Below, one piece after another: positions 3,626-37,436 of a DNA stretch of 64,000 nucleotides. Below the pieces are notes generated by a model. It saw only the letters and a program-made list of their open reading frames with translations, had not been told where the DNA came from and did not search any database. The translations under genes were made by a program, and so were the position numbers. The DNA comes from Acanthosoma haemorrhoidale (taxonomy: Eukaryota; Arthropoda; Insecta; Hemiptera; Acanthosomatidae): positions 116,443,768 through 116,507,767 of the forward strand of contig OV884014.1 in NCBI GenBank assembly GCA_930367205.1. Direction: 5' to 3'. Each line of letters begins with the position of its first letter. Positions within the stretch are counted from its first letter, which is position 1.

Positions 3626-3713
3626 TTACTGACTAAAATCATTATTAATGGCTTCTATTTTTTTTTCCAGGTGAGTTCAAAGGAGGTTACTTAAGAAAGA
3701 AATGTACGTGAGT
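3626..3713 (+). promoter_or_regulatory. Candidate recursive splice site 1 (ratchet point, junction 3670|3671)
   Basis: A pyrimidine tract (CTTCTATTTTTTTTTCCAG, AG at 3669-3670) is followed immediately by the 5' splice site GTGAGT at 3671. Branch-point-like ACTGAC and CTAAAAT lie 30-45 nt upstream. A second donor, GTGAGT, begins at 3708, 37 nt downstream. This is the recursive-splice-exon arrangement: the exon is first defined by the downstream donor, then the regenerated GTGAGT is used so that no nucleotides remain. No coding potential is needed or seen. Confidence 0.7.
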
Positions 3714-5835
3714 ACCCAAACGATTTTTCAATCCAATGTTTGAAAAAGTTTAGTTACGCCTACAGTCTTTTTGCACAAAAAATCATTTTTGTTATCTGTA
3801 TGATAGATATAGCAAAGGATTGTTTAGGAGACCCGTCAAGAGAAACATGACTACTCAAGACGGTAGCTCAGTTGAGGTACGGGCTTAAATCCGGGACTTA
3901 TCTCTTAAACCAAAAATATCTTATTATTCAGTTTAAAAATAATGAATCGTCCATTAGATTGTGTTCGTTGATCAGAGTTATTCACAGTTCCCAGGGCCCG
4001 TTAAAACGGTATTAATTGCTCGAGACGCTCACAAGCGTAACTGCCCACCTGTTTAAAGGTGGAATTATACACAAGTCCATTGTACATTGTTGTTGTTGAG
4101 GGTTCACACCCCCTCCTAAATATTCATGGTTTCATGGGTCCCGCCTGGGACCAGTAGCCATGACCTGCCGCAGAAAGAAACGGTCGGGTTACACTGCATC
4201 CTTCCAGTTTACTTTTTGCCCATCTCAACTGTCTTCACTTTTATTGTTTTTTCAGGTCGATCATGTGAAATCGTCTTGTTTGCTCTAACGGATTGCTTGT
4301 GCGCAATAAAATTGTTGTTTTGAAAGTCTGACAACCGATCCATTTCTTCTTGATTTCGTTCTGTCCCCGACTCCCCGATCTTACAGTGTCAACTTCTCTT
4401 CGCGAGGGGTGTCAGTGATCGAATAAAGAAGTAACAAACTTGGTCGAGGAATTATTAAAATTTGTATGAATTCAACTAACACCACATCACAGACCACAGG
4501 TTAAGCGGTTTAATTTTTTGATCAATCTTATCAATAGTATAAGTATTAATAATTACTACTCAACATTTCAAAACAATTTTTTAATTTTTAATTGTTCAAT
4601 TGTTGGTTTTGGGTTTAAATTATTTACATAACTCTCTATTTTTGTTTTCCCAGAAGTTATTTATTTCTTATTCAGGGGCGCTTTAGGCTGCTTAAATTCT
4701 CAAGTACTCGGAATGACAGTATGTTCTTCTGAACAAGAAATAAATAGCTTGTGTTCTTCAATTTTTAGGCAATTTTATGATAGGTCTCGGTTTAGACTTT
4801 GTTCCTTTTCTACGAGCAGTAATTTTCTCCAAAATGAGCGAAGAATTTGAAATATTCAACCGTGTTGAAATAAGCAGTTTTGGCTTTAATTGTTTGTATT
4901 TATTATTTTACTCGATTGATGTCTAATTTTAAACATGTAATTTACTGGGCTGCAAGTGGGAGTAAATTTACTGTCCGACTTGGAATTCCAACAGGAGAAC
5001 TTTTTTTTGTTTTTCTGCTAAATAGATTTAAAAACTGTAAGACTGTTCTACAGTTATGAAATGTTCCTTTCTTTGGCGTTATAATTAACAATGCCAGTAC
5101 AGCAATCACACTGACAGCAGGGAAATTATAATGTTAAGGAGTGAAATTGAAAATGGGAAATTGTACGTTATCACACGCGAGGCATTGTTTTGTCTGAGCG
5201 TATGTCATTTCTCCCTGTCCGCTCCTCCGGTGATTACAGGGACAACCCAACCAAGACCGTGGTCATTACACTTAAATGCCTTGTTCGAGTGTGTAGGGGT
5301 CGGGTCACGGCGCCCTGTGGCCCACGCATGATGCCGCTTCAAATGTCTCGTCGAAAGGTCAATAGTTTCGAAAAATAATACCTATCATTTTTGTATAACC
5401 GTACCTGCATCGGGGAGGTACTGGTAGGTCTTCATGACTCACCCCATTACAGGCGGATAGAAAATTATTTATGGGTCAAGGGTTAAAAATAAAAAAAATC
5501 ATTGTTGAGGTACCCATGACCTCATTATTTTTTTTCTCATGCTTGTACTTTTATCAAGCTTGAAGCTGTCATGAACAGCTCATTCGTCGTACCAAAAGCT
5601 TCTAGAGCACTTGTTCAGGTATGCATTGCCTGGAATTTTTTTCTCATCAGTGCTATCTTGTATTTTTTAAAACTTGTATTACCAAACTATCTAGTAAAGC
5701 AACTAAACCGGATTTGCCAGCTTCTTCACTGTTAAAGAAACTATTTCGTTAATTGAATTGGGCTCTGCTTTTGAAACGATCATAATATTGTTCTAAACAA
5801 CAAAAAAATTGGCTTGTAAGATTTGTTATTGAAAC
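3714..5835. other. Non-coding DNA; one weak tRNA-like motif
   Basis: No gene recognised. At about 3860-3900 GACGGTAGCTCAGTTGAGG resembles a tRNA A box, but no B box follows at proper spacing, so I do not call a tRNA or SINE. Small open frames at 5131-5378 resemble nothing known. Confidence 0.4.
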
Positions 5836-6590
5836 TTCTTTATTGTGCTAAAATTACTATCTGCCTTATTAAGCAATAAATAATTGTGATAAATATTCGC
5901 ATTCATACCATATTTACAATTTTCATTCACTCGCACATTCATACAGTATTAGTATTTACAAACAGCCCGGAGACCTCCAAAATCCACATGGTTGTCACCT
6001 CCCTCGCATGCGAAGAAGGAAGCGGAGTCTTGGGAAGTCCTCCACACTCCTCCGTCAGCCGTGTAACCGGATACGATCTTGTGGAGGCTGAGGAAGAGCG
6101 CGAGAGCCACATACGCTCAGGACATGATTGGAGAAACTGGCCATTACCAGGACTCCCACTGTCACGCATTTATAGCAGGTCACGAGGCCACTGCCATTTC
6201 AGTCTCCGAGGAGGATTATAGGGATGAGTGGTGCAGTGCAATGACTGTGCTAAGGGGGATTAAGTTGGTCGGATAGGTTTCAATGGAATTTCATGAAGGG
6301 ATGAGTTCAAGAATCTAGGGTATATTAAGATCGTTATGAAGGGTTTGTTGCTGACGTAATAAGGGGCATTTACTACTGTTCTCAGGACTTTTGATTGAAA
6401 GGATTGGCTTGATGTTCGACACAGAGCTATGGGGGTCAGATAGCTCTATTCCGTATGTCCAAGGCTTAAGTAGAAATTTGTAGTGTATGATTAGAAATTC
6501 ATTTTTTGTTAGTGTATTAAATATTTCATGGGCAAATCTGTTGAGAGAAGTTTTATTAGTTAGCGAACCGGACTTTTTCACATTGAATTT
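5836..6590 (-). mobile_element. LINE family A (Jockey-like), 5'-truncated copy
   Basis: Minus-strand reading near 6580-6320 gives the end of a non-LTR reverse transcriptase: LLKPWTYGIELSDP, then remnants of the segment before TLHNDLNIP. The rest is the family's 3' tail, shared with nine other copies here, ending in a terminus with AATAAAGAAG at about 5836-5850. The frame is broken and most of the ORF is absent, as is usual for 5' truncation during target-primed reverse transcription. Confidence 0.85.
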
Positions 6591-7199
6591 TTTTTTGCTT
6601 CTCGCTTAGGTATATTAACCGAAAAATAATTATCATATTTTGAGGTGTTCTTGTAATATCTTGTTTTCATTTTGGCTTGACAATATGTATCACTGATTGA
6701 TAAGTCATGTACGTATGTTCTGGATCAGTGCTCATTCTCCGCACGTCTGAAATGATTGACTGCCACTCTCACGAGAGTACGCCATACGCACTGTCGTCTA
6801 TTCCACTGTAGGAAAGGATATGACTAGTCACGTCCACGCGAGTCAATGACTTTACGGCAAGATATTGCATTCAGGCTGCACCTAGCGCCTCCTGCTTTTC
6901 CACCTCATGACTCATTGAGAAAGTGGATGACCCGAGATAACCCGAGTGCATTATCAAGAAAAATGTGGGAGAGAGTCGACAATCGCATGCAACGCTCATT
7001 GAATTCGTAACGATTTCGGTTTCGGATATCATGGCCTCCTTAATGGCCATTAATTAGTGTAATACGTATTATAATTAGTTTAGTGTCCTAAATTAGTATT
7101 TATCACAGTCGTATAACGACGAAAGCCTAATGACTTAATACATTCGTCAGGTAGTTAGACATTTATTTCAGTCAAGAATAAATTGTGAAGATGTTATTA
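6591..7199. other. Unassigned non-coding DNA
   Basis: Contains a pyrimidine tract followed by TAG|GTATAT near 6590-6612, considered and rejected as a recursive splice site. 6720-7010 is moderately GC-rich without a recognisable product. Confidence 0.4.
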
Positions 7200-7490
7200 T
7201 AATTTTATATTGTAATAATTGTGGTATAAATCGTGACAGTGGGCAGTATCTCCAATCATGTCCTGAGCGTATGTGGTAGTAGTGGAGTCCACTGGCTGGT
7301 AGCCGATGACGCGGCTGACGGAGGAGCGTGGGGGACTTCCCAGGACTCCGCTTCCTCTTTCGCATGCGAGGGAGGAGACAACCATGTGGATTTGGGAGGT
7401 CTCTAAGGCTGTTTGTAAATACTGTATGAATGAGAACATTACTTAATGCCTGATAAGGCAGATTGGAATTTTACCACAATGAAGATGTTT
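7200..7490 (+). mobile_element. LINE family A, 3' tail fragment
   Basis: Only the 3' non-coding part is present. It starts at the ATAAATCGTGACAGTGGGC region and runs through the conserved GAGGAGCGTGGGGGACTTCC block to the AAGGCAGATTGGAATTTTA terminus. It lies 0.6 kb from, and in opposite orientation to, the copy at 5.8-6.6 kb. Confidence 0.85.
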
Positions 7491-10400
7491 CCATGATGAT
7501 TGTATATTATAATAATTATAATTGTTGACTTAGTTTTCTCATAAATCAGAACCTTTTTTCAACAATTAAAAACTTTAATTTGTGTAACCTTCTGCAGATT
7601 TCACTCAATTCAGAACTATTCAGTTCATTGGACTATTTTTTCTCAGATGAACAAGATATAATAATTAAAAGATATGTTTTTCAAACTAGAAACTATTAGT
7701 AAAGGGGTCCGTTTGGACTTAGGAATAAAATAAAATAAACCGAAAACCTATACCTAAAGATTAGCCCAGTTTTAAACTGTATTTAGGCTATTGGTTACAT
7801 TTTTGTAGTTTGTATACTCTTATGCCCTGATAGTATGCAAGCCAATAAAACAGTTGGTAGAGAATTGTCACTAATTCTCAGGATAGAGGAAAAACTTTCA
7901 TTTACCACTTGGAGTAACGTTATGAATCAAATACTGTCAGATTTTTAGAAACCTGCCCATTTTCCAACGTCATTGCTTGTAATAAATTTCAATTTTAACA
8001 TAATAAGAAGGCAACAGTTCAAAATATTTAATTTTTTATTCTAGAAAGAACGTTCATTATTTTTCGTTCTCCAAGTTAAACACTCGGCCCCTGGGGAAAT
8101 ATATACAGTTGACTTAGGCCGGCCTATGTAATATCTTTATAAATAAAATGCCTTTTGTTTGTCTTCTTAAACTTTTGTGACGTTAAAGCAAATGTTACGG
8201 CTATGAGTTAGGAGAGGCTTTATGAACTTGTGCTGTGGCGATCACCACTTTCTTTGTCTATCTCCAAGTATATAATAATAATTTTTCTGAGCTCTGCTTT
8301 TGCAATTATTATTGTAGTTATCCTAGAACCACAAAAGCAACAAAGCGATCACTGCGTTACCGAACAGTCACGCTTTTAATCGATCCTATTCGTCTCGTCG
8401 ATTTGGAGCGAAACGAGCTACAGTTTTATCGACTGATCATGAGTTGTGAACTATTTTCTTTACAAACATTTCAAAAATCACCTTAGAACGACTTTTTGAT
8501 GAGGTTAAAGATAAAGATATGATGAGGTTAATCATATCAACCGCAACTCTTCAGGTCTCAAAATTCCTTAATATTCATAGGAGGTTAAAAGAAAGGAGGT
8601 TTCAAATCCCCTTTATTTAAACATTTTACAAAGAATCGAATAATATCATGAACAAATGTACAGATTTATGGCTCCTTTTTCTGCATAGCATAACATGCAT
8701 TTGAAGGAGGGTAGAATTTCAAAAAACATTTTTCGTTTTACAGTAAAAAAACTTTGTTTTAATTCTAAAAACTGTTTATAATAGGTAGTTTAAAGCCAGG
8801 TAACATTTCCAGAGCGACCCTTTCAAAACCAAAGAAAAGTGCCTTACTGTTTTGGTTGGAGATTTCGGCCTGGAAGCGGCTTAGAAAGAAATGAGGTGTA
8901 TTTCTTTCACTATGAGTGTATCGACTCAACACTGTTGCTCGCTAAAAACCGGCTTCACCATCTGTACGTGAACCATCTCCAAAAAGTGATGTTAACATTG
9001 GCGTCAAAGCGCACAGACATTTCCCGTGACGCTGTTAATTTTACCACCCTATATTTATTGAACCGTTGACACTGCGCAGGTATGCTTATTTATACGTTCA
9101 TACATGTGACCAATGTCTAGATTGTTAGATGAAATAATAACTTTTTGTAAGATATATCTAATACTTTATTGATAACAATAATCGACAAGCTATAGTTAAC
9201 GTTCAGCTTGTTATTTATAGATTTAAGAGAGGTCGATGTGGCCAAGCCAGTAACGCAGTTGGTGGTCTCGAGCATCGTGACCTCAGCGTTCTCGCACTGC
9301 CTAGAAAACCCTTAAGAGCTTTTATTCATATAGTATTGATAGGCATGATAGCCATGTTTATCCAGGAATACTATATATTCTTGTGATGGTCTCAAGCTTT
9401 AAGTGATAATAATAAATGATTTTTTTTTAATTGGTCCATTAAACCAGTAATTGGCTTTGTGTTTCCTTCGGCCAATAGTAAACATTACATTTTTATTTCA
9501 AATGCGTTTTCACATCAATCAAACGTATTTATATTTATACGGGGGCCAACCAAAAAATTGTCCTTTAAATTGTTTTTTGTACTTTTTCTATTTCTTTTTT
9601 ATTTTATTTATTTATTTGTGATAAAAAATTTTAATTAAGATATATTGCTCTGAGTAAATTATGTATGTTTGCTCCATTCAAGCCATACATTTCGTTCTGA
9701 GATTCAGTGCCTTCCACCCTTTTCTAAACGGGAGGTCATTCTATAACTATAATTAATAATTCACAAGCTATTATTTTAATCCAATCATACTGATGGCGAA
9801 GTCATAGTTTGTCGGGATACAAGGAAATAAACAGATATAAATACATTAAAACAATTGCAATAGTTATGAGCAAAATCTTTATTAATTGTGCCTAATGTGT
9901 TATTTGCGGGGATTCGATTGCGTAAACCTGAAACGTGTAGGCCTCCAGTTCTGATTAGCTTTTCTACCTTAATGGCCGCACTTAAAAACTACAGAAACTA
10001 ATAAAAAAGAATATTACCAAGTTGTTCACTATGCGTGTCCGTCTATTCAGTAATTAAAACACTGTGCATGTTAGACTTCATAACCCGTAATCCATTTTTT
10101 TTTTTTTATGTTTCTTTTTTAGTGCTGTCTGTGTAGTTAATATTCCTGTTCTACTCCTTGATCTAATTAAAAAAACTACTGTAAATACACTTAGTAAATG
10201 ACACAGGCCTTGGACCGTTGAACTGAGCCTCGGTCGGTCGGTGCAAGAGCAGCTCCTACAGAAAACTGGTTCCAGCCGGCCCCATAGGGGACCCCACCTG
10301 TTGATTAAAAACCAGTAATTATACTAATGGGGTGTCCCCTCCTTTGTAGGGTGTGTTGTTTTATGGGACCGTGTGTCGGTAAGTAGGGGGGGGGGTTACG

Positions 10401-11817
10401 ATTTCCAATCATTCCTCGTAATATCGTTGGAGACATCGTTGAAGGGTAAGATTATCAGTAAGCTAAAGTTGTCGTTTTTTGACTGTTTGATTTATGGAAA
10501 ATCGTTTCATTAGTACATAGAGTTCTGTACATTCCAAATGTGAAATCAGTATGGAATTCCACATGCCAAAAACAACTCAAAATCTGCGCATGAGCGTTAT
10601 GTATAATATATAAACACCCGCGGTACACAATATTTTTTTTAGTTAAATAATTTCATCAGGCAATCCCTTAATTCTCATTGATTTATATTTGAATTACTTT
10701 CTTTTAATTATCCAACTCTTTATATCATAATTGGCTCTAAAACTGTTCCTTTTAAACGAGGATACTCCAAGTTTAACTTAAGGAAAAAAAGTCTGCCTTC
10801 TTTTTAAATTAGTTTATGATAAAAATAATAAAAAAACTAATGGAAAGGATTTGAATACAGGAAAAATAGCAATAACAATAAGAAATGGACTTATTACCCC
10901 GAGGAACCCCTGGAATGGTTTTAAGCCGCGGATCAGCCTCTTCTCGCTTACTTGGCACGCCATGGCAATACATCAAACCATCCTCTTTCTCTTTCTCTTT
11001 CTCTCAAATCCTTTCTTAATGTACCACTTCATATTTTTTATATTTTGGATTAGCTACGCGTCACAACATGTCTCAAACCTGGCTTTTAGATGGATAAAAA
11101 CATAGATAGACTGACGGCTAACTTTCATGTAAAAATCACTAAGTAAAAGTAAGAAATATTTGAAAGAAGTCCAGTAAATAAATTCATACACGGAATGATA
11201 AAAAATAGAAAACAATAAAAAAAAGTCATTAAAAATACAAACTTATTATTAAACTAAATTAAAAGAACACATAAAGAATTAATAAATAAAAAAAATAGAC
11301 AAATAAAAAATGTAATAATAACAGATATTTTATAGTCGCTAATTGCCTTATTTATGCAATCACTTCTTTTTTAAAGATCCTCGATTTATGTTATTTACGG
11401 TTTACTAAGTTTTTTGTCAGTGGTATTGCCATTAGTGGATTGCTAGTGAGCGTATGAACACTGTTACCACGCCCTGAAAGGCAATTTACATTCGTTCAAA
11501 AAAAGGTTTAAGTTATAAACTTTATGAACAGTTAAAGGGCGAAATAAATTATAATAACTTAAATACAAATTAGTTGAAGCGTTTGTTGTGTAGGTCAGTT
11601 TGTTTAGTCTATTTTGGGACAACTTTCCATCATACTATGTATGTTTGCATCAGGTTCAAGTGACTAGAAGGTTTGGACTACTCGAAACACTGATGACTAG
11701 GCCCTGATGGAGATAATGAATAGTATCTATTTTTCATAAAGCCAACCCGAGATATCTCAACAAATGCTTTACCTCATTACATGTACACACGGCTAACAAT
11801 TAAATCGTAGTTTAACT
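7491..11817. other. 4.3 kb without recognisable gene
   Basis: AT-rich DNA with poly-T and poly-A runs and a G run at about 10386-10395. Open frames at 8235-8486 and 8839-9069 each contain LERNE followed by a similar stretch, so they may be two diverged copies of one unknown repeat. I cannot name it. No exon, RNA gene or transposon end was found. Confidence 0.4.
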
Positions 11818-12530
11818 TAACTACTTCGAAGGACATCCCATCTCTAAATAGAAAATAAACTACGTATTTACAAAGTTATACTTAAGCCAATCTGGACATA
11901 CGAAATAGAGCTATGGGGGGACAGCAAAAAAGTTAAGCATCAAGCGTACCCAGTCCTGAGAACAATAGTAAATGCCCCTTATTACGCCAGCAACAAAAGC
12001 CTTCATAACGATCTTAATACACCCTACATTCTTGAACTCATCCTTTCCAAGTTCATGAAATTCCATAGTAACCTATCCAACCACGCTAATCCCCTAGCAC
12101 AGTCGTTATACTGCGCCACTCATCCCCATAATCCTCCTCGGAGACTAAAACGGCAATGGTCTCGTGACAATACGTCACGACAATAATCGCTATAAATACG
12201 TGACAGTGTGAGTACTGGCAATGACCAGTTTCTGGTATCATGCCCTGAGCGTCTGTGGCTCTCGCGCTTCTGGTCAGCCTCCACTAGCTCGTATCTGGTG
12301 ACGCGACGAAACTCCGCTTCCTCTTTCGCATACGAGGGAGGTGACAACCATGTGGATTCGGGAGGTCCCCTGGGCTGTTTGTATCTACTGTATGAGTGAG
12401 CGAGTGAATGAAAAATTAGAAATATGTTATGAATGAGAAAGAACATTTATTTATCATAATTACTTATTGGCCAATAAAGCGGATTGTAATTTTATCGCAA
12501 TCAAGAAATTTCAATGACAAAAATAAAGTT
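11818..12530 (+). mobile_element. LINE family A, truncated copy with RT C-terminus
   Basis: Begins within the thumb region of the reverse transcriptase (pieces LKPIWTYEIELW and NAPYYASNKSLHND across frameshifts), continues through PPRRLKRQWSRD at about 12135-12170, and ends in the shared 3' tail at 12480-12530. A short local duplication (TACGTCACGACAATAATCGC, about 12171) is not in sister copies. Confidence 0.85.
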
Positions 12531-14524: not shown

Positions 14525-15401
14525 GGGTGTCCCAGAATTAACGCAAGATTAAACTTAAATAAATAGAAAACACAGTTTTTAGTATTTTTTTTTTTTTTAT
14601 TGAATTATAAAGTAAATAGAATAGGGTTATTTATGGAATAACACATCGGGCAAATGGCCTCCACGACTTTGCTGGCACATACGAATGCATTTTCGAAATT
14701 TTCAATGATCATTTAGCATAAATGTGGTTGAATTTCGTTGATGCAGCGTTGAATTTCCTCTTTTAATGCACGGGTGGATGTGGGCTTGTTGGCATACACC
14801 TTTGATTTCAAATAACCCCATAAAAAGAAATCTAAAGGTGTTAAATCACACGATCTAGGGGGCCAATTCTGATATCCGAAACGAGAGAGTACACGACCTG
14901 GAAATGACTCATGCAGTATTTGAATTGTATCATGGGTTGTATGGCATGTGGTACCATCTTGTTGGAACCTCATATTGGCCACATCAATATCATCTAATGT
15001 CAGCACGGTCTACGACGCCGAATTGATGTTCCTGGATTTTCAACAACACTCTCACGCACTGCTTCGATATTGACATTTGAACGGCTTGTTTTGGACGACC
15101 AGTGTGTTTAGTGCCTCCAACTGATCCAGTCTCCCTAAATTTTTCAATTAATCCCTTCACAGTTGATGAAGTCAAAATACTATTCCGATCATATTTTGTA
15201 TGAAATTTTTAACTGCGGCCGCCAAACTGACATTATTTTTGAGATAATGTTCAACAATAAAGACATGTTGTTTTATCGTGTAACGCTCCATCTTTACTTA
15301 CCCTAAACTGTCAGCTGTCAAATTGATTTTTTTTAGGGTTGCCAGCACTTTACTGCACCAATGGCGGCAAATTCAAATCTTGCGTTAATTCTGGGACGCC
15401 C
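14525..15401 (-). mobile_element. Tc1/mariner-like element, family A, copy 2
   Basis: Inverted ends GGGTGTCCCAGAATTAACGC (14525) and its complement (ending 15401, one change) are flanked by A/T-rich TA-like sites. Minus-strand peptides: TSSTVKGLIEKFRETGSV and GTKHTGRPK (helix-turn-helix side), then DGTTCHTTHDTIQILHESFP and CDLTPLDFFLWGYLKSK (second and third aspartates). The stretch between RRR and the ALTLDDIDVANM-like segment, including the first catalytic aspartate, is deleted. Confidence 0.9.
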
Positions 15402-17778
15402 TTTATTTTCACTCTAAGTTGTGACTAAGTTTTGGTTCAAACCACTGTCTGTAAAACACGAAGGAGGTCTCTCCACTTCACTGCTGAGCACCATATCTTT
15501 TATGGCACTCCCTTTTCCAGAAGGGTTGTAAACTGTCAAATCCTCCAGTAATTAAACGCCACCCTGGAGCGGATAGCACCCTGGTTGCCGTCGGGGAAAT
15601 CGCCCCACGCCCAAAAGATTTAATTTCGTGCCGACTTCTTCCGTCTCTGCCATTCAGCACCTGCCACACACATAAAATCTCTATCTCTTAACCCATTCTT
15701 ATTTCTACCTTCATTTAACTTTACTTAGTAGGAGTCGAACATATAACATAAGTAATGGAATAGACATGAAAACAAATAAATTTGTACCGCTCTTCTTCAT
15801 TTTTTTTTACTTTACTATAATAACTATTTAATATTACAATTATCTACATGGCAGACATTAAGGGAAAAATAAATCCATGGGTATTCCATAAAAATGTTGT
15901 TGGAGAGCCAGTTAAGTTTTTTAATAGGTTTCTACAGTCAAATTACAATTACAATTTATTTGTTTCTGTTCTAAAGCTATGGATTTGTGTAGGACTAAAT
16001 GGTGAATTTGGTTCAAATCACGTTTTAAGTATTGTAATTTTCTGCGTGCTTATGTTCTGTGGCTATTACTATTTATTTATTAGCAATTAGATCGCCTTTA
16101 CCATTTAATAATAGGAGTATACAATTTAAATAATAAATGACATGCCAAAAGGAATCTCGAGGCCACTTGTATGCTTCAACAGTTAATTAATCGGCTTTGT
16201 TAATTTACGTTTTAAGTTATGAACACTTGGAATATTATCTGTTTGTTGGATATGAATCTTCGACAGGTTTTCTTCTTGTGATAATATTCTTTGATGATTT
16301 TCCGCGGTATATTACTCTACTTATTATTATGTATCAAGAATACGTAACCGTTTTGAAACTGATGACTAAAGAGTGTTTATTCTGTGATGACATAAAACCA
16401 CAGATGAGACGGCCTGTATCGGTGGTTGGTTGATGAAGATTCGATGCCTGCCTGCCCAAGATAAAATATACATTAGGGTTTTTTGGTTTTTTTTTCTAGG
16501 GTGAAATTTATGGCGACTGGAAATAGTCAGGTCCCAGTCCCTCGGGATGGAGATAAACGCTATCGGAGTTTTGGGACCGATTAGGTCTCTGTCTCTAGGT
16601 TTCAAATGTTTTTTCTAGCCTCATTTTTATCGGTTTTATTGTTTATTGTTGGGGGTTCACGTCTATTGGTTTTATTGTTTATTGTTGGGGCTCACCTCTA
16701 TTGGTGATGATCTAAAATAAGGTAGAACAAGCAGAGGAAAAATCACTTGTCCAAATGTGGTTTGATTCGTCACCAAATTTTTTTAAAGTCTTTTGTCTTC
16801 TCTATCCTGAAACAGTCGTCTAGGTCTAAAAACAGGTCAACTAGCAAATCTTTAACCAAACCATTATAATATGTTCTTGAGTTGCTTTATTGTTCAATTA
16901 CTGGTATTTTCTTTTTCCAAACCATACACGAGAATAATAATAACATGTACATTGAAAAATAACAGTTGTCGAATAGCCAGCCTCTTTTATTAGCAATAAT
17001 AACATCTTAGAAGTGAACTATAATTACCTATAGCTATAAAAGTGATTACATGCCAAAACTGTAAAGCTAATGTTATGTATTATTATGAAGGGCATCGAAT
17101 TAAAGGTCTCAGTGTCATGATTAATAATGTATATTGTGATGGGACTATAATAACTATAATTCAATAATAGCTGTATGGGTAATGAGAGTTTGTTTAGTAG
17201 CATGGGTTCCCAACCGTGACGGTTTGGACGGATAGTCACTTGAGTGGTGTAGGAGAAACTAAACACTAGTATCTTATGTTAACTTCGTAAATAGTATACA
17301 CAACGTTTTAATACATTTTTGAAATGTAAATAATATTGACGTATTATTGCTTACACACAACAAATCTTAAGGACTGTACAGACGATACACAAATTAGTGT
17401 CTTGCTGTTATATTTTCTTAGAAATTATTTTTCGCTCGTTTTCATCACTCACCTGCGATCAACTTGAATAAAACTTCAGTGGTGTATCGACTGGGGATTT
17501 TTAGGGGGTTAACGGCATATTGCAGGACCAGATTTTGATATTTTCTCTGCCATTTAAAGGTTGGTCCCCAACGGCCCTGCTGAAAGCTAAGGTCATAAAC
17601 CTTAGGCTTAGGTCATGATTCGGAACGCTTTAAAAGAGAAAAAGAAATTACCTCCTAGTATGAGAATTGTTGCGTGATAGGCGAAAAAGAAGATTACTAT
17701 CACCAGTAAGGGCCTATTGATGGTATGTTCGAAAATCCTTTATTTGCCCGCCGATGACATTTAGTATCTTATTGTATA
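15402..17778. other. No gene recognised; GC-richer block and a 36-bp duplication
   Basis: 15420-15680 is GC-richer and holds a 63-codon minus frame with no known relative. 16632-16703 is a 36-bp tandem duplication (GGTTTTATTGTTTATTGTTG repeated). The rest is AT-rich and unassigned. Confidence 0.45.
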
Positions 17779-18622
17779 GGATGTCCCAGAATTAACGCAA
17801 GATTTAATTTAAATAGATAACACAGTTTTCAGTATTGATTTTTTATTGAATTATAAAGTAAATAGGATAGGGTTATTTACGGAATAACACATCGGGCAAA
17901 TGGCCTCCACGACTTTGCTGGCACATATGCACTCTTTTGTCGAAATTTTCCATGACCATTTGGCATAAATGTGGTTGAATTTCATCTTTTAATGCACGGG
18001 TGGATGTGGGCTTGTTGACATACACCTTTGATTTCAAAAAACCCCATAAAAAGAAATCTAAAGGTGTTAAATCACTCGATCTAGGGGGCCAATGCTGATC
18101 ACCGAAACGAGAGAGTACACGACCTGGAAATGTCTTATGCAGTATTTGAATTGTTTCATGAGCTGTATAGCATGTGGCACCATCTTGTTGAAACCACATA
18201 TTGGCCCCATCAATATCATCCAATTTCGGCAGAAAGAACTGTGTTACCATGTCGCGATATCGAGCACCAGTAACAGTCATTGCTTGACCAGCCTCAGTTA
18301 AAAAAAATATGGTCCAATGATGCATCCAACCCAAAATCCATACCAAAAAGTGACACGTTGTGGATGCATTTGTTTTTTGACAATCACATGTGGGTTCTCC
18401 GTACCCCAAATGCGATAATTTCGTTGATTAACAAAGCCATCGAGATGAATATGTGCTTCATCGCTTAGGATAATTTGCTCGAAAAATCAGCGTGTTCTAT
18501 CATGTAACGCTCCATTTTTTACTATTCTCAGCTATCAAATAGTTTTTTTTTAAGGGTTGTCAGCACTTTACTGCACAAATGGCGGCTAATTCAAATCTTG
18601 CGTTAATTCTGGGACACCCTTT
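17779..18622 (-). mobile_element. Tc1/mariner-like element, family A, copy 3 (best catalytic core)
   Basis: TIRs at 17779 (GGATGTCCCAGAATTAACGC) and ending near 18620, beside TA. This copy keeps most of the catalytic core. Around 18480-18400 one frame reads ILSDEAHIHLDGFVNQRNYR (first aspartate region). The long 178-codon minus frame 17873-18409 then holds FQQDGATCYTAHETIQIL (second aspartate) and DLTPLDFFLWGFLKSKVY (third), finishing QQSRGGHLPDVLFRK. The helix-turn-helix half is missing and the two core pieces are in different frames. Unlike copies 1, 2 and 4, the deletion here is 5' of the core. Confidence 0.9.
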
Positions 18623-18796
18623 ATGTGCGAGGTTTGAGTTCTTACTAATGCCGTGTGCGGTCACCTGTACTTCCGTAACACGCTTCAAAGCCCACTCGAA
18701 TCGAACTGATGGGCTTAAAATAAAAAAATTATTCAATATCTGTTTGTCCCTTCACAGCAGTACTGCTTTATAGGCGCATGCTCTCTTCCAAGAGTC

Positions 18797-20844: not shown

Positions 20845-20933
20845 CTCAATATTAATAAATAAATTATAATTATATTTTTATTTTCTGTTTCAGGTAAGAG
20901 AAAAAAAAGTAAAAACTATCGTTTTAAGTAAGT
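20845..20933 (+). promoter_or_regulatory. Candidate recursive splice site 2 (ratchet point, junction 20893|20894)
   Basis: TTTTTATTTTCTGTTTCAG is followed directly by GTAAGA at 20894. Upstream ATTAATAAATAAATTATAAT offers branch-point candidates. A stronger donor, GTAAGT, starts at 20928, 34 nt downstream. The layout matches sites 1 and 3 in order, strand and internal spacing. Confidence 0.7.
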
Positions 20934-25426: not shown

Positions 25427-25524
25427 AAAAAAAGAATATTTACAAATTAATATTAATACGATACTAACAAGGAAGTAGATATCATATATTTGGTATCATT
25501 TTTGGACAGATTGTTCCAAGTGTT

Positions 25525-28018
25525 TCACCGTGAACCCGAATGAGACTCCTTCTTGACACCCAGCCTCATCTCGCCGAACTGGAGTTCGTTGACTACCGTG
25601 AGTATCCTCAGCTTGGCCTCACCCACCTTCCTCGGGTGCATTTTCTTCAGTTGGAGGGCGACACTCCGCATGAACAGATCCACGTCGTCCTCCTGCGGGC
25701 CCCGTCCCGAGTCCTCGTCCTGGCTGTGTATTTCGTCCATAGACACTTCGTCGAACCTCCTCTTCCGGGAGGTTCCTTCTTCCGAGATGTTTCCCTCCAT
25801 GGAGAAGTCCTCTTGCTCCTGGATGACGATCTCTGGGGCCGGCAGGATGAACCTCCCTTTGTCATATTTGCTGTCTCTTGAAGGCCCTGCCGCTTCTCTG
25901 TCTTCGATATCGTCGTGGGACACTATCCTGTAAATGAGCAGTTACGGTTGTTTATTGGCATCCTCTTATATTACTATCTCATAAACAAGAAATCCATGTT
26001 TAAATCACTAACAGTAGTAGGAAGAGAAACGGAATGATTATATTCGAAATGGGAGAGTCATTAGTAGTAATTTTCTCGGATGAGAATATAGATAGAATCA
26101 GACTCAACCCAAAAGAAAAAAAAGAGCTAAGGCGAGTCGGGAATAGAACCCAAATTTGCGTATTTGTATTCAGACATGCTAACCACCGTTTAAATATATC
26201 TTTGAAAATGTAATTTGAATATTTGAACCAATGCCAATGTGCTGACCGAAAATATTGGTCTGTTTATTGGAACTCGCACATTTTCTAGGGAAGAGAAGAT
26301 ATTTTCGTTGTGAAAAATCATAACCCTTTTTAATTGTGGTTGATTTCATGCGAAAGTTAAATAATCTTTGTAGAGGAGAGTCTTTTAAAAGAAAAGAAAG
26401 AAAAGCTTTATTATGAAGTACAATCAAAACACTGGTATATACTAATATTATGAGTTACCTTACTACATACTGGGTGGCATGTCTAGGACGAGTGGGGTCT
26501 GGGGCTAAAGCTGAGGCACATATGTATAAGAAAAGGATACGATTCTGGGAAGTAGGGAGGTTTTGGAGGGATGCGGTTGCTTATTTAAAAATAACAGAAA
26601 CCATCAGTGACTTCCATGAAGTCACGAGGCAGGTATACAGTTCTGCTCAGGCCCCTTCAACTTTTAGCATTATATATAATATTAGCATTATAAAACTGGA
26701 AGATACGATGCAATCGTTATAGATAAATTATTTCAGCAGTCATACATGTATTATGTGAGGAGCTATAGTTTTTCTTTTACTAAAACATGGCTACGTTTTT
26801 GCTTTAAACTCACCTCCTCTCAGGCTGGACCATGTCGAGAAATGCGAGCTTCCCCGCCAGAGGCCACCTGCACTTGTCAATCTTATCTTGTCTTTTGATC
26901 TTGAAATAATTGTCCTTAATATCTCTCCATCTTCTCTTACATACTTCAACTGAAAAAAAACCAAAACAATTCTAGGTTCAATTCGTTTTGAGGTAGCAAA
27001 GTATGTCAATTTCAATAATTGCTACAGCATATTCTTTTCCACAGTTCAAGGGTTCATGTGATTGGCGAAAATTAACTCACGTTCGTAGTAAACCTTTATC
27101 AATGGAGTGGATATTGTATTATTGTATTATTTTCATTTTAAGATTGCTTTACATAACGCTTACTTAAATGTGACTAATATCGAGTAACAGTTGAAAATCT
27201 CAAAGATAACGTTCCACGTGACATAATCTGATTTTCTGCTAAGTGAAACCTATTACTGATATTTTGAGGGCGTCTGATAAATTTAAACCATGCTTGAAGA
27301 TAACCAGTATTTTCGGTTGATGTATGAATAAATCACACTCGCATATGTATGTAATGGATTGAATAATGGAATAATAATCTGCATTGAAACGATGACTTGC
27401 AATTAATTTATTCATTCAGCAGACGTGCGGCGATTGTAATTGTATAAATTGCGACGTGTGTGAAAAACATTTAGCACCATTTGAACTCCATTATAATTTT
27501 TAAAAGTAATTATTTGTTAGTCTATTTTTATTGATTATAAACGGCAAAATTTTTTTTATATAATTCGTCGTTTTTAAATGTTAAAATACAATTTAGTCCA
27601 GGTCTTTAGATCAGTTAGTATTATTATGTTTATTTTATATTTTATTCTATGTTTATTTTTAAGGAGATATTTTTGTCTTTTGATTTAGATCTTCACTTAA
27701 CGGAGTAACTGATCTAGATGGCGATTTATGTACATATATTCATAATTATGCTTGAAATATCTCAGTCGTTGGGTAGATGATAAAAATAGATTTCAATAGA
27801 GGGGGGGATTATAGAAAACAAACAATGTGAAAAGTAAGTAGCTTTGGCTCACCGTCTCTCGCCACGGACGCTGCAATGATCTCCCATATGTCGCTCTTCA
27901 CCTTCGCGTTCCGGAAATCCTGGTGGCGCCAGATGTAGATGGCAGGGTATCTGGAGACGCAGCTGATGAGGAGGTCGTCTTCGGCGTCGCTGAACCGCGT
28001 TGGACCCTTGTGACTCAT
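25525..28018 (-). CDS. MADF-BESS domain DNA-binding protein (Adf-1-like), three exons
   Basis: Exons: 28018-27853 (166 nt, ATG at 28018, donor GTGAGC), 26949-26814 (136 nt, acceptor TTTTTTTTCAG, donor GTGAGT) and 25927-25525 (403 nt, acceptor TTTACAG, stop TGA). The sum of 705 nt keeps frame across both junctions and encodes 234 aa. Residues about 12-100 form a MADF (Myb/SANT-like) domain: SDAEDDLLISCVSRYPAIY, the W of YIWRHQDFRN, SDIWEIIAASV, then VCKRRWRDIKDNYFKIKR in exon 2. Residues about 181-218 form a BESS motif (DDVDLFMRSVALQLKKM ... LRILTVVNELQF). Between them is an acidic linker with a basic RKRR (155-158) that may be a nuclear signal. In this family the MADF domain binds DNA and BESS mediates protein contacts, so a nuclear transcriptional regulator is expected. 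Intron 2 carries a SINE fragment and repeat R. Exons are far GC-richer than introns. The exact orthologue is not determined. Confidence 0.9.
26120..26196 (-). mobile_element. tRNA-derived SINE head (in intron 2)
   Basis: On the minus strand ACGGTGGTTAGCATGTCTGA is followed about 20 nt later by GGGTTCTATTCCCGAC. This is an internal pol III promoter layout (A-box-adjacent segment and B box) of tRNA-derived SINEs. The A-box 5' half is degraded and no anticodon arm folds convincingly, so it is not a functional tRNA. Confidence 0.55.
26355..26698 (-). repeat. Dispersed repeat R, copy 2 (in intron 2)
   Basis: Closely matches 18893-19238 over its whole length, from GTTAAATAATCTTTGTAGAG to TATAAAACTG. 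It lies between exons 2 and 3 of the MADF-BESS gene in that gene's sense orientation, and it brings an AATAAAGC poly(A)-signal-like motif into the intron. Confidence 0.85.
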
Positions 28019-30101: not shown

Positions 30102-30210
30102 AGTATGTTCTAACGCTGTAACTGATTAATATTTGTATGTATACCAGTGTTTTGATTGTTATTCATAATAAAGTTTTTTAAAAGACTCTCCTCTACAAAG
30201 ATTATTTAAC
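30102..30210 (+). repeat. Dispersed repeat R, copy 3 (3' part)
   Basis: Only the last about 110 bp of repeat R in sense orientation: ACCAGTGTTTTGATTG, CATAATAAAG, then CTCTCCTCTACAAAGATTAT and TTAAC. Confidence 0.8.
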
Positions 30211-30284
30211 TTCTGACACCTAAAATCCGAAAATAAATGCTTGACTATTAAAAAAATACGGGCTCACAATAGCTGAAAATATGC

Positions 30285-30535
30285 TGATTATTGTGCCTGT
30301 TTGCGCAGTGAACCCGGATCGTATGTCCCAAACTTAACTGCCCGTTGTACATTTGGAAAGGCACCCGGCGCCCGAATGTCGCACCCCCCCCCCCCTGGAG
30401 AAGTTAAAACCCGAGGACACATTCCGCCCTGCCCACGTACTCCCACGCCTGGTGCAGCACGCGAAGGCAGCGGCGAAAGGTCCTGGAGAATCCGCGCTGT
30501 CACCACTACCTCTTGACAACTCTCTGGAGTGTATG
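30285..30535. other. Orphan GC/CpG-rich block
   Basis: About 250 bp with open frames of 60-72 codons on both strands and a C run at about 30385-30396. No family was recognised in any frame. It could be an untranslated exon, a promoter or an unknown repeat. Confidence 0.35.
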
Positions 30536-30810
30536 TACTTTCTTTCTCGTGTAGAGCCTATTCAATAGGTCCTGCCTTCTTGTACAAACGCTCTACACCT
30601 ACCTCTTTGTGGTGTTGTGACAATAGCCAGCCCCGTTGGAAAAGAAAGGTTAAGTTTTCACCGAGTTTATTCGTGGTTAACGTTTCCTCATAAAATGTCT
30701 GTCTACAAAACAGAACTGTTTAAAAATATAACGTTAGTTCTCATTCATATGTACAGTTATTACGAATAAACTTGATAAGAACATATTTTACATCAGGTCT
30801 CCAGTCTTTA

Positions 30811-30961
30811 GTTTTATAATGCTTGCTTTATTTATAATATTTATAATCTTACAAAGAACAAGTAGAAGGGGCTTGAGCAGAACTTTATACCTGCCTCGTG
30901 ACTTCATGGAAGTCACTGATGGTCCCTGTTATTTTTAAGTAAGCAACCGCATCCCTCCATG
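30811..30961 (+). repeat. Dispersed repeat R, copy 4 (5' part)
   Basis: Matches the first about 150 bp of the element: GTTTTATAATGC, GAAGGGGCTTGAGCAGAAC, ACCTGCCTCGTGACTTCATG, CCGCATCCCTCCA. It is cut where the copy at 31.3 kb continues. Confidence 0.8.
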
Positions 30962-31272
30962 CTTTAACATAGATTTTAACATTTTTGGCGTGAATATGTA
31001 TTATGGTTCGTCTAATAATGTAAAAACTAAAAATAACATCCAAATGCTAACTGATGGTCCCCAATACGACTATAACTATGTTATGCCCGCCAGTTTGTCA
31101 TTGAATTGCGTTAAATGAAGACTGCAAAGAACTGTCGTCCGAAAGCGTAAGGGTAAGGATTGAGACTTGACAACTACTCTCAAACTCCAAAAGCCGACGA
31201 ACCCTTAAAAATTAGATTCTAGATTGCAAATATTGAATCCAGGCAGAAAGACTACACCTCGGCCGAGTTCTA

Positions 31273-31635
31273 CAGTTTTATAATGCTAAGAATATTATAA
31301 TGCTAATATTATATATAATGCTAAAAGTAGAAGCAAGCCCCTTCTAGTGTATACCTGCCACGTGACTTGATGGAAGTCACTGGTGTTTCCTGTTTTTTTT
31401 TTAAGTAAGCGACCGCATCCCTCCAAGACATCGCTCCCTATTCATGGAACTACCCTTTTCTTATACATATATGTCTCAGCTTTAGCCCCAGACCCCACTT
31501 GTTCCTAGACATCCCACCCAGTATGTAGTAACATAACTCTTAATATTTGTATATACCAGTGTTTTGCTTGTACTTCATAATAAAGCTTTTCTTTCTTTTA
31601 TTTTAAAAGACTCTCCTCTACAAACATTATTTAAC
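31273..31635 (+). repeat. Dispersed repeat R, copy 5 (most complete, sense strand)
   Basis: About 363 bp from CAGTTTTATAATGC to CAAACATTATTTAAC, with CATAATAAAGCTTTTCTTTC near the 3' end. It contains short AT-rich duplications at its 5' end (TATTATAATGC / TATATAATGC). Confidence 0.85.
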
Positions 31636-34241
31636 ATACCACACTCCTCAATTCCTTCAGCCAACCTTCAAATAGGTCCCTCCTTGTAAAAGGATCCCTT
31701 TCACCCCTATAAATTCCATGTTATTTTATTTCCCCCAATTCTTTTTTCAAAATTTGATAGAAATGGAGGGGGGGGGAGGGAGAATAAAAATCAAATCAAA
31801 TATTGAATGACGTCAGAAAATATTTCGTAAAGGATATTTGGCATTTCAATCATCACTCGAATTATCCTGCCTTTGATAAAAATCGCCTACTCTTACTTTC
31901 AGATGGATTAGTTTTAAGATTTAATCTTAAGCTTCAAGATGGCAAGTTGTAATTAAGTTTTATTCTTAAGAAGACGGCCAAGATAAGCTCGATTTGAGGT
32001 TAAGACGAAAAATATTGTTTAAGATATGAGAGTGCTTTATCTTGGCCACAAACAATGCCTTCCTTAAAACAATCTGAGATTGTCCGGTATTTTCACAACG
32101 CGTTATCTGATGTTTTTTTCGAAAGCGATGTTATTGTTAGTGTAGAGTAACGATCCACTATCTCCTGATATTGATTATTGTTGCATTTTTCGTCTCTCTC
32201 ACCTCGGAAATTTCTAGTGAGAGTTCATTGCTATTAGATTTGTATCATGGTTGTAATAATTCATTTCCAGATTGGGTGACTCCGCCTAATTCGAAAAGTT
32301 TTTTATTTATGTATTTTTTTTCTATAAAAGTTCCTATTTTCTAAAAGTTTTAGCTCTGATTAATGTTATTGGTTTGTAATAAAAATGCTTTAAGCTAATA
32401 TAAGTACTGCTAGCCATTGCGAGGTATTTTACTATAGATATTAATTAATTAATACAAAAGATATTATTAAACTGAATTCCACGTCTTAAGAATATTAATT
32501 TTATTTAGTTGGAGCAACAAAGTATTTCAAAAGGCTTTGAAGAGTTATTCTTTAACGAAAAATACAACCTTATTACTTTTGAAATCACGGTTCTAGAAAA
32601 AAAAAAAAACCTTATTTGAAAAAGTATTGTGATTTTAGTAGTAATTTCTCAAAATTAAAAGTCAAGTTCCAAATGATTAGAATCCTGGTATCTCTCACAT
32701 AAAATTAAATATTCTTACATATACATTTGTTTTTTTCCCCCATATCCCCTTGTTACAAATTTATACATGTACAAAATTTAGACTCTACAAACGAATCTAT
32801 TTACAATTGCTTCATTGTATTTCCTGTAGCATGGCTACATTTTATATAAATTTTGTATACAAAATAGTGATTAACATAGTACAAAAGTATAATGATGCTC
32901 ATTATACTTTTGTACTACTTTTAAACCCTAATTTTAAACCCTTCAATTTTATTATAAAATTATTTATACAATATTGATATAGAATTCCTTTAATTGTTTC
33001 CATCTCTCAACACTGATGTGGGATGACCATAAAACTGATACATCACTGGGAGTGGGGTGGTGATTCTGGGCAAAATGTGTATATTATATGAGTAATTGTT
33101 TATAAGCATGAATGATATCTTACATCCAAATTAATAATGCTGCACAAGCAAACTGTAATTTTTAGAATAGAATTCACAAAATTATTTTGTTGTTGCGTCA
33201 GTGAATTCGCATCACTCGAAAAAGATTCAATTATTTGTCCCTATGCAAATTGTAGGTTTCGCTCGCTTGTGCGGAACGTGTGTGTGTGTTTTTTGTATCC
33301 TACCACTTTAGAGATGCGGTAACTGAGAGACCGAACGAAGTTAATTTGTAGTTTTAAGTTAACTTTCACCGATCACGTAGTGCCTAGGATTTATTAGATG
33401 GTAGTTACTGTATTTTGTTTTCTCTAAAATTAATGAGTTCTTACCTGTCTATAGAGGCAGCATTTATTTGGTCCGTTGAACTCGGTATTGCTTGATAAGA
33501 CTATCTTCAGTTGTGACCAAAGTGGATCCAATGAATTATCTGTATACAATTTTTGTTTTCTAGGCTGTATTCGCATTGTTTGCTTCTCGGTTTCCCCGTG
33601 GGGGCTAGCTGACCCCAGCCCAAGATCGTCTTTTTTTCGGATGCAAAACGGGTGGAAAACGTACAAGGAATCAAACCCAATGCACCTTAATTAGTAATAG
33701 TAAATAATTTTAATAATAACAAACAATTATGAACCTATGAAATCCTAATATCAAGTATAGCTATATATTGAACTTATAGATAGTTAGTTCTCTCAAATCT
33801 GAGCAGGGTTTTTATGACAAGACTGACTACGTCTGGTACGGCCGGGGTCGTTGTGACCTACATGCTATCCTTTGACCCCTCGCCTCGCAACTTGGGACCT
33901 TTGCTGGCCCAGATCTTTGAGATCGACCCTGTTAATGTTCCACGATTTATTCCTGACGCAATTGGTCCTGTCGCAACGCAACCTTTTTTTTTTTTTATTG
34001 AACAGGGTACGCTGTTCGTTCTTTTGTAAGAGCATTTGCATGATTCTCATAAAAGTTTGTCAATAGGCTGATATTTACTGTTCTATTGGACCATGTCCGA
34101 CTTAGTCTAGTCAGGATAATGAGTAAAGGAGTAATCCATGGACGTCAGGCCACAAATTTCATTTACGTTAATCTTGTAATGAATGAGCACTCAATTCAAT
34201 TTGTGTTGCGATTGTTCAGAGGCATCTTTTATTGATATTCT

Positions 34242-34289
<48 letters not shown>

Positions 34290-35828
34290 TGTTATATTAT
34301 ATTTTATTCTTTTATGAGGTTAATTAGGAAAATATTTACGAATGTATAAATCATTTTAAATGTTCGCGCAATTGAGATCTTAGCTGGGAAATGGCGTCTC
34401 CATCTTATTTATAAAATATTCATTCTTCATTGCTCAGTACTAGTTCTAGCCCACAATATACTCGTACCCAATTGATACATGACATGCAGTGATTACTACA
34501 GCATTTGCACTATATGAAAGTCTTGGGTTCAATTCATTATATTGGTGATGTTTCATTCTTCGTTCGCTCCTTGAAGGACGAGTTCCTTACATTTTACTAC
34601 ACGATAAAACCATATCATAATTATATACCATAAATTAATATAATATCTCTGAGATTCTATAATAATCCAACTTACATATCTGGGATCTGACCCGGTAAAT
34701 GTTGATGCTATGAGTATATCATTCCTTATTCCAGAGCTTTTATTATTCTTAACTCCTCCACAGTATGGCTAGTAACATCTAACATATACATATGGAACCA
34801 TGGAGCCATAGTGGTCTTTGAGAATTGAGGCATGCTCACCCACCCACTGTGTGGACTGTAGCCATATTAGCATCTCCGTTCTCAGCTTCTAACCCCTCTC
34901 TTCTTTTGCCGCATTAACTCCACTCCCCTTGAGTTGGCAGAGATTCTTTTGTGGACTGTGCTAAGTCGCCTGTCGTCTTCAGCTCCCGCCCGCATACACG
35001 GTACGGAGAGATTATGCTAACTGCTTCCTTTCACTCGGCACATCCTGGCTCCGGGTCGTGACAGATCGTCGTCTCATGGGCTAAACAGTCTTCAGCAGGA
35101 AACGCACCGCGTCAAAATAAAATACGCAATTTGAGAAACTGTCTTTTTAATTATGAATAAGTTCAAAAAAGTAGTAAAGAACATCACAGGAATTTTGATG
35201 GTACGCCTTTTTTTTTTCCAACAGGTCTTTAAACCCGACGCTTATTTTCCACAGTCACCTTGTAAATCACCGCTTTTGGAGTCGTCAAAAGCTAAAAATG
35301 CTCAATTCATCGTTGTTCACGTCATTGCCTCATCATATTTAACGATGGTACTTGTATTCCAATCAAGACCAAAACATTGTTGCTAGCTCATGGAATTTTT
35401 CGTATGTTTAAGGTCTACACCCCAGCGCCTTTGTGTTTGCTATGCAACTGTGTTTTTTGTATTGTTTTTAATTTAGACAGTACGCATATATATCTATAAT
35501 GATTATATTATTTTTTTATACTTCAGATTCAATAGTCTCTCGCTGCCATGCCAATACTTGATTGTCAGCAAGCAGGAAATGCGATTTAATTATCGAAAAT
35601 CGTTACTTAAATATCGATTAAAAACATTGACGGTTTCTGTATTTGATTTGTTCATCGGCTAACTCTTCCCATGATCCCTGGGGAATTTTACTACTGCCAT
35701 GATGTAGCATTGAGCTCGCGGAAGATCGCATTCGAAGGCTCTGGAGCCCAACAATGGTCGGCTTGGCATAAAGCGAAGTATTAAAACATTGTGAAATAAG
35801 TTTGGTTTTTGTGGCCATTTTGCGAGGA
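31636..35828. other. 4.2 kb without recognisable gene
   Basis: Contains a G run at 31767-31776, an 11-bp inverted pair GGCCAAGATAA/TTATCTTGGCC (31977 and 32037), a (TA)n microsatellite at 34254-34285, and GC-richer stretches at 33800-33990 and 34880-35100 with no identifiable product. Confidence 0.45.
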
Positions 35829-36200
35829 AGTTGAAAAAAACCCGCACGGCTTACTTGCTGACTTCCCCCATTCTATCACTGCGCCTCAAGCACATGATTT
35901 ACAAGAACATACTCAGGCCTGCTCTGCTGTATGGTGCACCGCTTTATAGTCATCTGACCGACTCCAACAATTTCAAAACGCGATACCCATGAAAGTGGTC
36001 CGACAATCTACATTCCAGCACCGGAGGAACAGTGAGCTCCACGAAAATTTTGATGTGAGTTCATTCGCCGTAGACATATCAAATTGTTTGATTCGCTGCA
36101 TTATCTAACAAAGCCCATGTTTAACACGATTTCCCTCCCTCCGTTACCCTATCGATGGCAGCAGGCTGTTGAGGCGGATTCACTAGGATTAAGTTTGAGG
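35829..36200 (+). mobile_element. LINE family B, reverse-transcriptase C-terminal fragment
   Basis: The + strand reads TAYLLTSPILSLRLKHMIYK and NILRPALLYGAPLYSHLT, the thumb-region motif of Jockey-like reverse transcriptases. After a frameshift it reads FDSLHYLTKPMFNT and YRWQQAVEAD, the tail shared with the copies at 13.1 and 55.5 kb. It is 5'-truncated, and the 3' tail fades after about 36200. Confidence 0.75.
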
Positions 36201-36724
36201 TCCCCATATGTAGTCGGAAGGTGATCCACTTCACCTAGTCCCTTGTATAATTTTTAACCATAGTCAGAGATAGTATTTGTGCCAGACACTGCATAGATTT
36301 AATTGTTAAATAGACTTAAACTTGGAGGTTAAAAGTGGGGAGAGGCAACTCCTCTACCTCTTGAGTTAAACGCAATGCCGACCCGAGCATAGGCTCAGGT
36401 ATTTATTAAAGACGCCCTGTGTCTAGCGGTAACAAGCAACATTGATTAACCTCTACAATTAAGGTGAAATAAAGCAAGCCTATTTAAACTCAGTAGAACA
36501 CTGAGCAGGGGCTCGTGCATGTCTCTATCCACATCACTGCTCACTTTAAAATATGCTGTTTATTAATGATGATAGTTATTAATATGATTTTTTTCATGTG
36601 TGTTTTCAAATTGTTTTCATGTCTTGGCTGTTATATTATCGTTAATTAGACGTACCTGCTAGTTATCGACAAAATACAGTGACATGAAAGTTAGTGGATA
36701 CAGATGAGACAAGTCTAGAGCAGC
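36201..36724. other. Unassigned non-coding DNA
   Basis: Nothing recognised. Confidence 0.45.
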
Positions 36725-37065
36725 GACGTTCATTCTTTCACGTCATGCCAGAAGTGAGGTCTGATCGTAATTGAATAAAAGCCCAACGGCAGCGCAGCGT
36801 ACATATCTCCCGAGACATGAACAGCCGAGGGGAAGTTTTTGTGCGGATCTGTGCCGCACACAAAGAGGCAGGGGTGGACAGGAGGGGTAAAACGCCTGCG
36901 GGAGACGCCGTGCCCGAGGCACTCAGGCGTTAGGAGCGCAGGCGTCGCAGGACGGCCCCTGGTGGCGGGCTCTTTTTGTAATTCCACATCTCTCTCAGCG
37001 CAGCGACATTTTTTTTTTAGGTCGTCCGTCGGCCAACGGAACCGCTGTGTTCTCGGATTTTTCTT
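36725..37065. other. Orphan CpG-rich island
   Basis: About 340 bp rich in CpG (for example GGAGACGCCGTGCCCGAGGC) with open frames of 85 and 100 codons on opposite strands. I recognise no protein in any frame. It lies 0.3 kb upstream of candidate recursive site 3. It may be a promoter, an enhancer or an untranslated or lineage-specific exon. Confidence 0.35.
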
Positions 37066-37364
37066 TTTTTTTTTTTCTGACAGCTATCTCGTTACAGTTA
37101 GAATATTTCTGTTTTTATTTTTAAAATATCTTTACATTTAGTTTTGACTGTACGATCATTTATTTGTTTTGTTTCAATACAATCAATGTAATTTCGTCAT
37201 CGCGAGGATTCTATAGTTCTAAGTATCCACCCACATCCATACTATCTAGAACCACCTCCTGGCATGTTGGGCTGGGGTGCCTACTTGAGTTTCGTTCACT
37301 ATTGGAAAATTGTTTCTGCGTCATTAAGTAGATTTAAATTTTATCATATGTCATAACATAAAGA

Positions 37365-37436
37365 AATATACTAATGCTTTTTTTTTTCTTTTTTTTTCAG
37401 GTGAGTGTTTACAACTATGGAATACTGTTAGTAAGT
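37365..37436 (+). promoter_or_regulatory. Candidate recursive splice site 3 (ratchet point, junction 37400|37401)
   Basis: A textbook 3' splice site: TACTAAT branch point at 37369-37375, a long T-rich tract, CAG at 37398-37400. GTGAGT follows immediately at 37401, and a second donor, GTAAGT, starts at 37431, 30 nt downstream. This is the strongest of the three sites. Confidence 0.75.

Follow-up and report, generated by a model that had tools for sequence, protein, structure and literature searches.

The question raised by this locus is whether 64,000 nucleotides of the true bug Acanthosoma haemorrhoidale, described in an initial annotation as apparently empty DNA, belong to a single giant intron that is removed in steps. 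This stretch, to which we refer as the window, corresponds to C4:116443768-116507767 (+ strand of contig C4) in a genome assembly of 865.6 Mb and 72 contigs; positions below are counted from its first base, negative positions lying upstream. The initial annotation noted three + strand junctions of the form CAG/GTRAG (the slash marks the junction), at which an acceptor and a donor coincide, and proposed that they are ratchet points of recursive splicing in one long intron of a gene with exons outside the window. In our view, the three junctions are very probably ratchet points with cryptic recursive-splicing exons (RS-exons) in one Rap1GAP intron of 201,869 nt, which extends from the GoLoco exon of that gene to its next coding exon.

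Junctions in the window

The three junctions were located on the + strand at 3671, 20894 and 37401, with the spacings of 17,223 and 16,507 nt originally given, and read TTTTTTTTTCCAG/GTGAGT, TTTTCTGTTTCAG/GTAAGA and CTTTTTTTTTCAG/GTGAGT, respectively. Ratchet point 1 (3651-3713) comprises an acceptor at 3651-3670, the GT at 3671, a predicted RS-exon of 37 nt (3671-3707) and an RS-exon donor, GTGAGT, at 3708. In ratchet point 2 (20874-20933) the corresponding elements are the acceptor at 20874-20893, the GT at 20894, an RS-exon of 34 nt (20894-20927) and the donor GTAAGT at 20928, and in ratchet point 3 (37381-37436) they are the acceptor at 37381-37400, the GT at 37401, an RS-exon of 30 nt (37401-37430) and the donor GTAAGT at 37431. 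Candidate branch points are present at ratchet point 1 (CTGAC, starting 42 nt upstream) and ratchet point 3 (CTAAT, starting 30 nt upstream). A row of tandem repeats ends at 20,867, directly upstream of ratchet point 2.

The window contains 16 AGGTRAG sites, eight on each strand. Only the three junctions are preceded by a pyrimidine tract, with 13-15 pyrimidines among the 15 bases counted; the other 13 sites have 3-9, in agreement with the original statement that they lack a tract and that none qualifies on the - strand. Scored as composite splice sites, that is, as an acceptor and a donor at one AG/GT junction, the three reach 26.4, 21.9 and 27.4 bits, whereas the next best sites in the window score 14.5 bits (+ strand) and 19.1 bits (- strand); the matrices used are approximations, not trained on the present genome. 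Scores as high as those of the junctions were obtained for three of the 198 AGGT sites on the + strand and for none of the 210 on the - strand. Markov models of order 1, 2, 3 and 5, each simulated 200 times for one strand, yielded means of 0.035, 0.01, 0.02 and 0.02 sites per strand scoring at least as high as the lowest junction, with a maximum of one.

Each junction is also followed by a donor 30-37 nt downstream, as first noted, the nearest GTRAGT lying at 37, 34 and 30 nt. Since a GTRAGT occurs 25-60 nt downstream of only 1.5% of + strand positions, a downstream donor at all three junctions has a probability of about 3e-6 by chance. The three junctions are real and far beyond chance expectation. 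We therefore attach a negligible weight to the explanation that they are fortuitous resemblances in T-rich DNA: acceptors of comparable strength with no donor do occur elsewhere on the + strand, but the Markov simulations, the strand bias, the RS-exon donors and the genome-wide controls described below all oppose it. A scan of the window against Rfam at gathering thresholds matched no family. The repeats listed, 20 of the 26 direct families (the largest) and 25 of the 35 inverted pairs (the longest), include no copy family that covers any of the three sites.

Host gene and flanking exons

The sequence scanned consisted of the window with 200 kb upstream and 50 kb downstream (314 kb). The highest-ranking of its 36 + strand exon candidates is an exon of 90 nt at -81,256 to -81,167 which encodes a GoLoco motif (PF02188, E = 3.2e-11). 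Farther along the same strand, exons encoding a Rap_GAP domain are found at 134.6-135.6 kb, and the joined translation of these exons matches the solved Rap1GAP with E = 3.8e-84. In Halyomorpha halys the GoLoco, dimerisation and GAP domains are present in one Rap1GAP protein (P0004), of which residues 13-648 of 648 map to C4 as 12 co-linear + strand matches, at -109.7 kb, at -81.3 kb (the GoLoco exon), at 120.7 kb and from 133.2 to 141.8 kb; residues 1-12 are unplaced. The Rap1GAP exons are 93% identical to those of H. halys. Seven more P0004 matches, on other contigs, are weaker and paralogous. Assignment of the GoLoco exon to pins/GPSM2 or to loco was considered and rejected, given that a single H. 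halys protein carries GoLoco and GAP and maps across both flanks. On this co-linearity with P0004 the host gene is identified as Rap1GAP, with a GoLoco motif, a Rap-GAP dimerisation domain and a Rap_GAP domain. Mammalian Rap1GAP isoforms with GoLoco have been described (PMC12329598).

The exon at 120.7 kb was predicted in a stretch that had initially not been covered and was later located there. Its acceptor is GTTACAG/AGC at 120,703. The GoLoco exon, whose donor is in phase 0, when joined at this acceptor yields the protein junction AYFSQ/SSREERR, which matches P0004. The intron between the two exons thus runs from -81,166 to 120,702 (C4:116362601-116564469, + strand; 201,869 nt) and contains the whole window (1-64000). 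Both flanking exons are present in the same assembly, and the proposal of one long intron with exons outside the window is upheld.

Candidate ratchet points beyond the window

Composites of at least 20 bits number eight on the + strand and zero on the - strand of the 314 kb. The scan covers 195 kb of the intron, the other 6.5 kb (114,001-120,533) lying outside it. In these 195 kb five candidate ratchet points are found, all on the + strand, at -32,715, 3671, 20,894, 37,401 and 98,160, as against none on the opposite strand at the same threshold. The composite at -81,166 (21.8 bits) was rejected as a ratchet point and excluded from the counts, because the GoLoco exon ends there in the ordinary way. 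The two sites outside the window also have RS-exon donors, at 36 and 40 nt for -32,715 and at 37 nt for 98,160. A long GA-type simple repeat (98,310-99,073) begins about 150 bases downstream of the latter.

The ratchet points divide the intron into segments of 48.5, 36.4, 17.2, 16.5, 60.8 and 22.5 kb. The regular step of 16.5-17.2 kb originally suggested does not hold for the intron, in which segments range from 16.5 to 60.8 kb; the even spacing in the window is local only. Extension in both directions thus recovered the anticipated + strand flanking exons and further ratchet points, but not at the anticipated positions: the sites expected at about -13 and +54 kb are absent, and the next ones lie at -32.7 and +98.2 kb.

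The only + strand coding gene within the window is rolling stone (rost; 48502-49305), and all three junctions of the window lie upstream of it on the same strand. They could on that account serve a long intron in the 5' untranslated region of rost, and possible acceptors are indeed present just before its ATG (48,437, 48,444, 48,334 and 48,086). We consider this highly improbable and have rejected rost as the host gene, because ratchet point 98,160, with its RS-exon donor, lies past rost, and Rap1GAP coding exons flank the entire stretch on the same strand.

Splicing model and donor competition

The junctions thus combine a strong acceptor and a strong donor at one AG/GT, a location, in the orientation of the host gene, inside a very long intron bounded by two Rap1GAP coding exons, enrichment on that strand, and a cryptic RS-exon with its own downstream donor, weaker than the ratchet donor. 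Their assignment to the known class of intronic ratchet points is made on these features of the sequence, and we infer that recursive splicing takes place at them. In the likely mechanism, the donor of the GoLoco exon would first be joined at -32,715 to the acceptor part of that ratchet point, and the donor 36 or 40 nt downstream would allow the site to be recognised as a short exon. The intron would then be removed in about six lariats, with no residue in the mRNA.

Ratchet donors and RS-exon donors score 13.2 and 6.0 bits at 3671, 11.3 and 6.7 bits at 20,894, and 13.2 and 4.7 bits at 37,401; outside the window the values are 10.2 and 6.7 bits and 11.4 and 6.8 bits (approximate matrix throughout). 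The ratchet donor is therefore the stronger at five of five sites, and under the donor-competition model (PMC8605326) skipping of the RS-exons is predicted. Such competition, and the order in which the sites would be used, are likewise predictions.

The short segments may be viewed differently, as alternative Rap1GAP microexons with GTRAG at their start, expressed and retained in certain isoforms; they could still be recursively spliced, in the manner of the Ubx microexons. In favour of this view, the reading frame left by the phase-0 GoLoco exon would be neither shifted nor closed by the 30-nt segment at 37,401 or by the -32,715 segment in its 36-nt form. Those at 3671, 20,894 and 98,160 (37, 34 and 37 nt), however, would shift the frame if retained, and the first has an in-frame stop. 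Furthermore, AYFSQ is joined directly to SSREERR in the H. halys isoform X1 protein, and the ratchet donors outscore the RS-exon donors. Microexons are thus an improbable explanation for the set, although because the 37,401 segment and the 36-nt -32,715 form are in frame and open, either may be retained in some mRNAs.

Several observations weigh against the interpretation of the junctions as ratchet points with RS-exons. Two of the + strand composites, at -174,456 and -145,157, lie upstream of the -109.7 kb exon; the first is followed at 36 nt by a donor that is only weak (GTATGT), and the second by no clear RS-exon donor. They may serve the preceding Rap1GAP intron, a suggestion made with P0004 residues 1-12 unplaced. 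A ninth + strand composite, at 103,709 (18.3 bits), also lacks an RS-exon donor. Finally, the RS-exon donors are modest by the full matrix (4.7-6.8 bits), and a donor scoring 7 bits or more lies within 20-60 nt of 4% of positions; because of these modest scores, the excess of RS-exon donors rests on the GTRAGT hexamer.

Distribution in the genome

The pattern TTTTNCAG/GTRAG followed by GTRAGT 24-54 nt past the junction occurs 195 times in the genome (104 on the + strand and 91 on the - strand), compared with 11 occurrences of the reversed core-plus-donor pattern. When the donor is displaced to 124-154 nt, the count is 12 (five reversed), so that the RS-exon donor signature is about 16-fold above this control. 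The bounds of 24-54 nt were our choice and limit the distribution of RS-exon lengths accordingly, and the pattern counts may be low, as only the best candidates were scored. Among the first 100 of the 195 matches, strand agreement between neighbours is complete within 200 kb (20 of 20 pairs) and holds for 21 of 22 pairs within 500 kb and for 25 of 29 within 1 Mb. In a hand count of the first 100 RS-exon donors listed, 15 have G at position -1.

A pattern without the donor was found 190 times, as against 38 for its reverse. In the first 100 of these matches, minus six in a tandem array, 13 pairs lie within 200 kb, all of them with both members on one strand, whereas 4.5 such close pairs would be expected from uniform placement irrespective of strand. 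The array, at C1:38505828-38536126 (+), consists of six copies of CTTCTCCTCCCAGGTGAGT that are 5.1-6.3 kb apart and is unfit for ratchet counts. We consider it probable that Hemiptera use recursive splicing through cryptic RS-exons throughout their genomes, as represented here by about 200 strict sites, which group by strand into clusters spanning tens to hundreds of kilobases.

Two other groups of sites were noted. The core-plus-donor sites at C1:57106728 and C1:57152002 (+) are 45 kb apart and have similar RS-exon sequences, suggestive of the duplication of a single ratchet point. A second gene with a Rap_GAP domain (C1:140643978-140645727, -) has two strict ratchet-like sites upstream on its own strand, at C1:140684929 and C1:140736937 (-), distances of 40 and 93 kb.

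Nested genes and repeats

The description of the window as apparently empty was not borne out: it contains rost, a gene of MADF-BESS type and transposon remnants. The rost gene is a single open frame of 267 codons (PF21534, E = 2.4e-28). Three proteins, of which two come from stink bugs, are 59-65% identical to its product, and the identity to the rost protein of Nezara viridula is 63%. It lies wholly within the predicted ratchet segment of 60.8 kb (37,401-98,159), on the same strand as Rap1GAP, and the Rap1GAP transcript must therefore traverse the rost poly(A) region. The MADF-BESS gene (25525-28018, -) is antisense to Rap1GAP in the segment 20,894-37,401. Its putative exons (approximately 28018-27853, 26949-26814 and 25927-25525) are splice-bounded open frames with a BESS motif and a MADF domain in two pieces, the second of which is below the Pfam cut-off.

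One repeated element (family D1/D4/D9/D13) has copies at 12-498, 14600-15406, 17826-18624 and 43921-44576, which we take, from their transposase-like reading frames, to be mariner-like; Pfam gave a sub-threshold helix-turn-helix match to one copy only. A retroelement integrase fragment (rve) at 47103-48020 (-) scores 29.9 bits, slightly under the Pfam cut-off.

Comparison with known systems and significance

Work on Drosophila has established ratchet points, RS-exons and the competition between donors (PMC8605326; PMC6110457); in this fly most introns longer than 40 kb have such a site (PMC6110457). The Drosophila examples (Ubx, kuz, Bx and hundreds more; PMC8605326, PMC6110457) share with the present sites a pyrimidine tract and CAG/GTRAG at one junction, a very long intron with several sites on the strand of the gene, and a short cryptic exon whose own downstream donor is outscored by the ratchet donor. 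Ours differ in that they occur in a true bug, in a Rap1GAP intron of 202 kb, and are predicted from the sequence, and the putative RS-exons are 30-40 nt long compared with about 50 nt in flies (PMC8605326).

An earlier survey, likewise confined to sequence and using the complementary strand for comparison, reported that ratchet-point sequences are enriched in the large introns of mosquito, bee, beetle and sea urchin (PMC2773006). Hemiptera are absent from its species table and RS-exon donors are outside its scoring. Its rates of 0.48-1.03 sites per 100 kb in mosquito, bee and beetle and 2.2 in fly are not directly comparable with our five sites in 195 kb, as the scoring differs. Mammalian recursive sites and RS-exons similarly involve two-step splicing through an AG/GT junction and competition between two donors, but only nine fully suppressed long-intron sites are definitively noted there (PMC8605326), as against five candidates in one intron here. 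A 2026 review names fly, mouse and human as the documented cases of recursive splicing (PMC13149111), and the text of a 2026 preprint (PMC13105047) makes no mention of insects. Within the literature that we searched, no article dealt with recursive splicing in Hemiptera, the single match being a piRNA review, or with that of Rapgap1, and a broader search on insects yielded nothing that we considered relevant among the 12 matches listed of 3,077.

Recursive splicing has mostly been worked out in Drosophila and mammals. That ratchet points of a true bug can be recognised by their sequence and by a second, independent signature, the RS-exon donor, offers a cheap route to the age of the mechanism and to the introns that depend on it, and the Rap1GAP intron, with 202 kb, five predicted junctions and two nested genes, is a sharp single test case. 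If the system is indeed Hemiptera-wide, recursive splicing through RS-exons would be older than the split between true bugs and flies, and the distance of the donor would serve as a signature by which ratchet sites could be listed for any insect assembly from its sequence, with no need for RNA.

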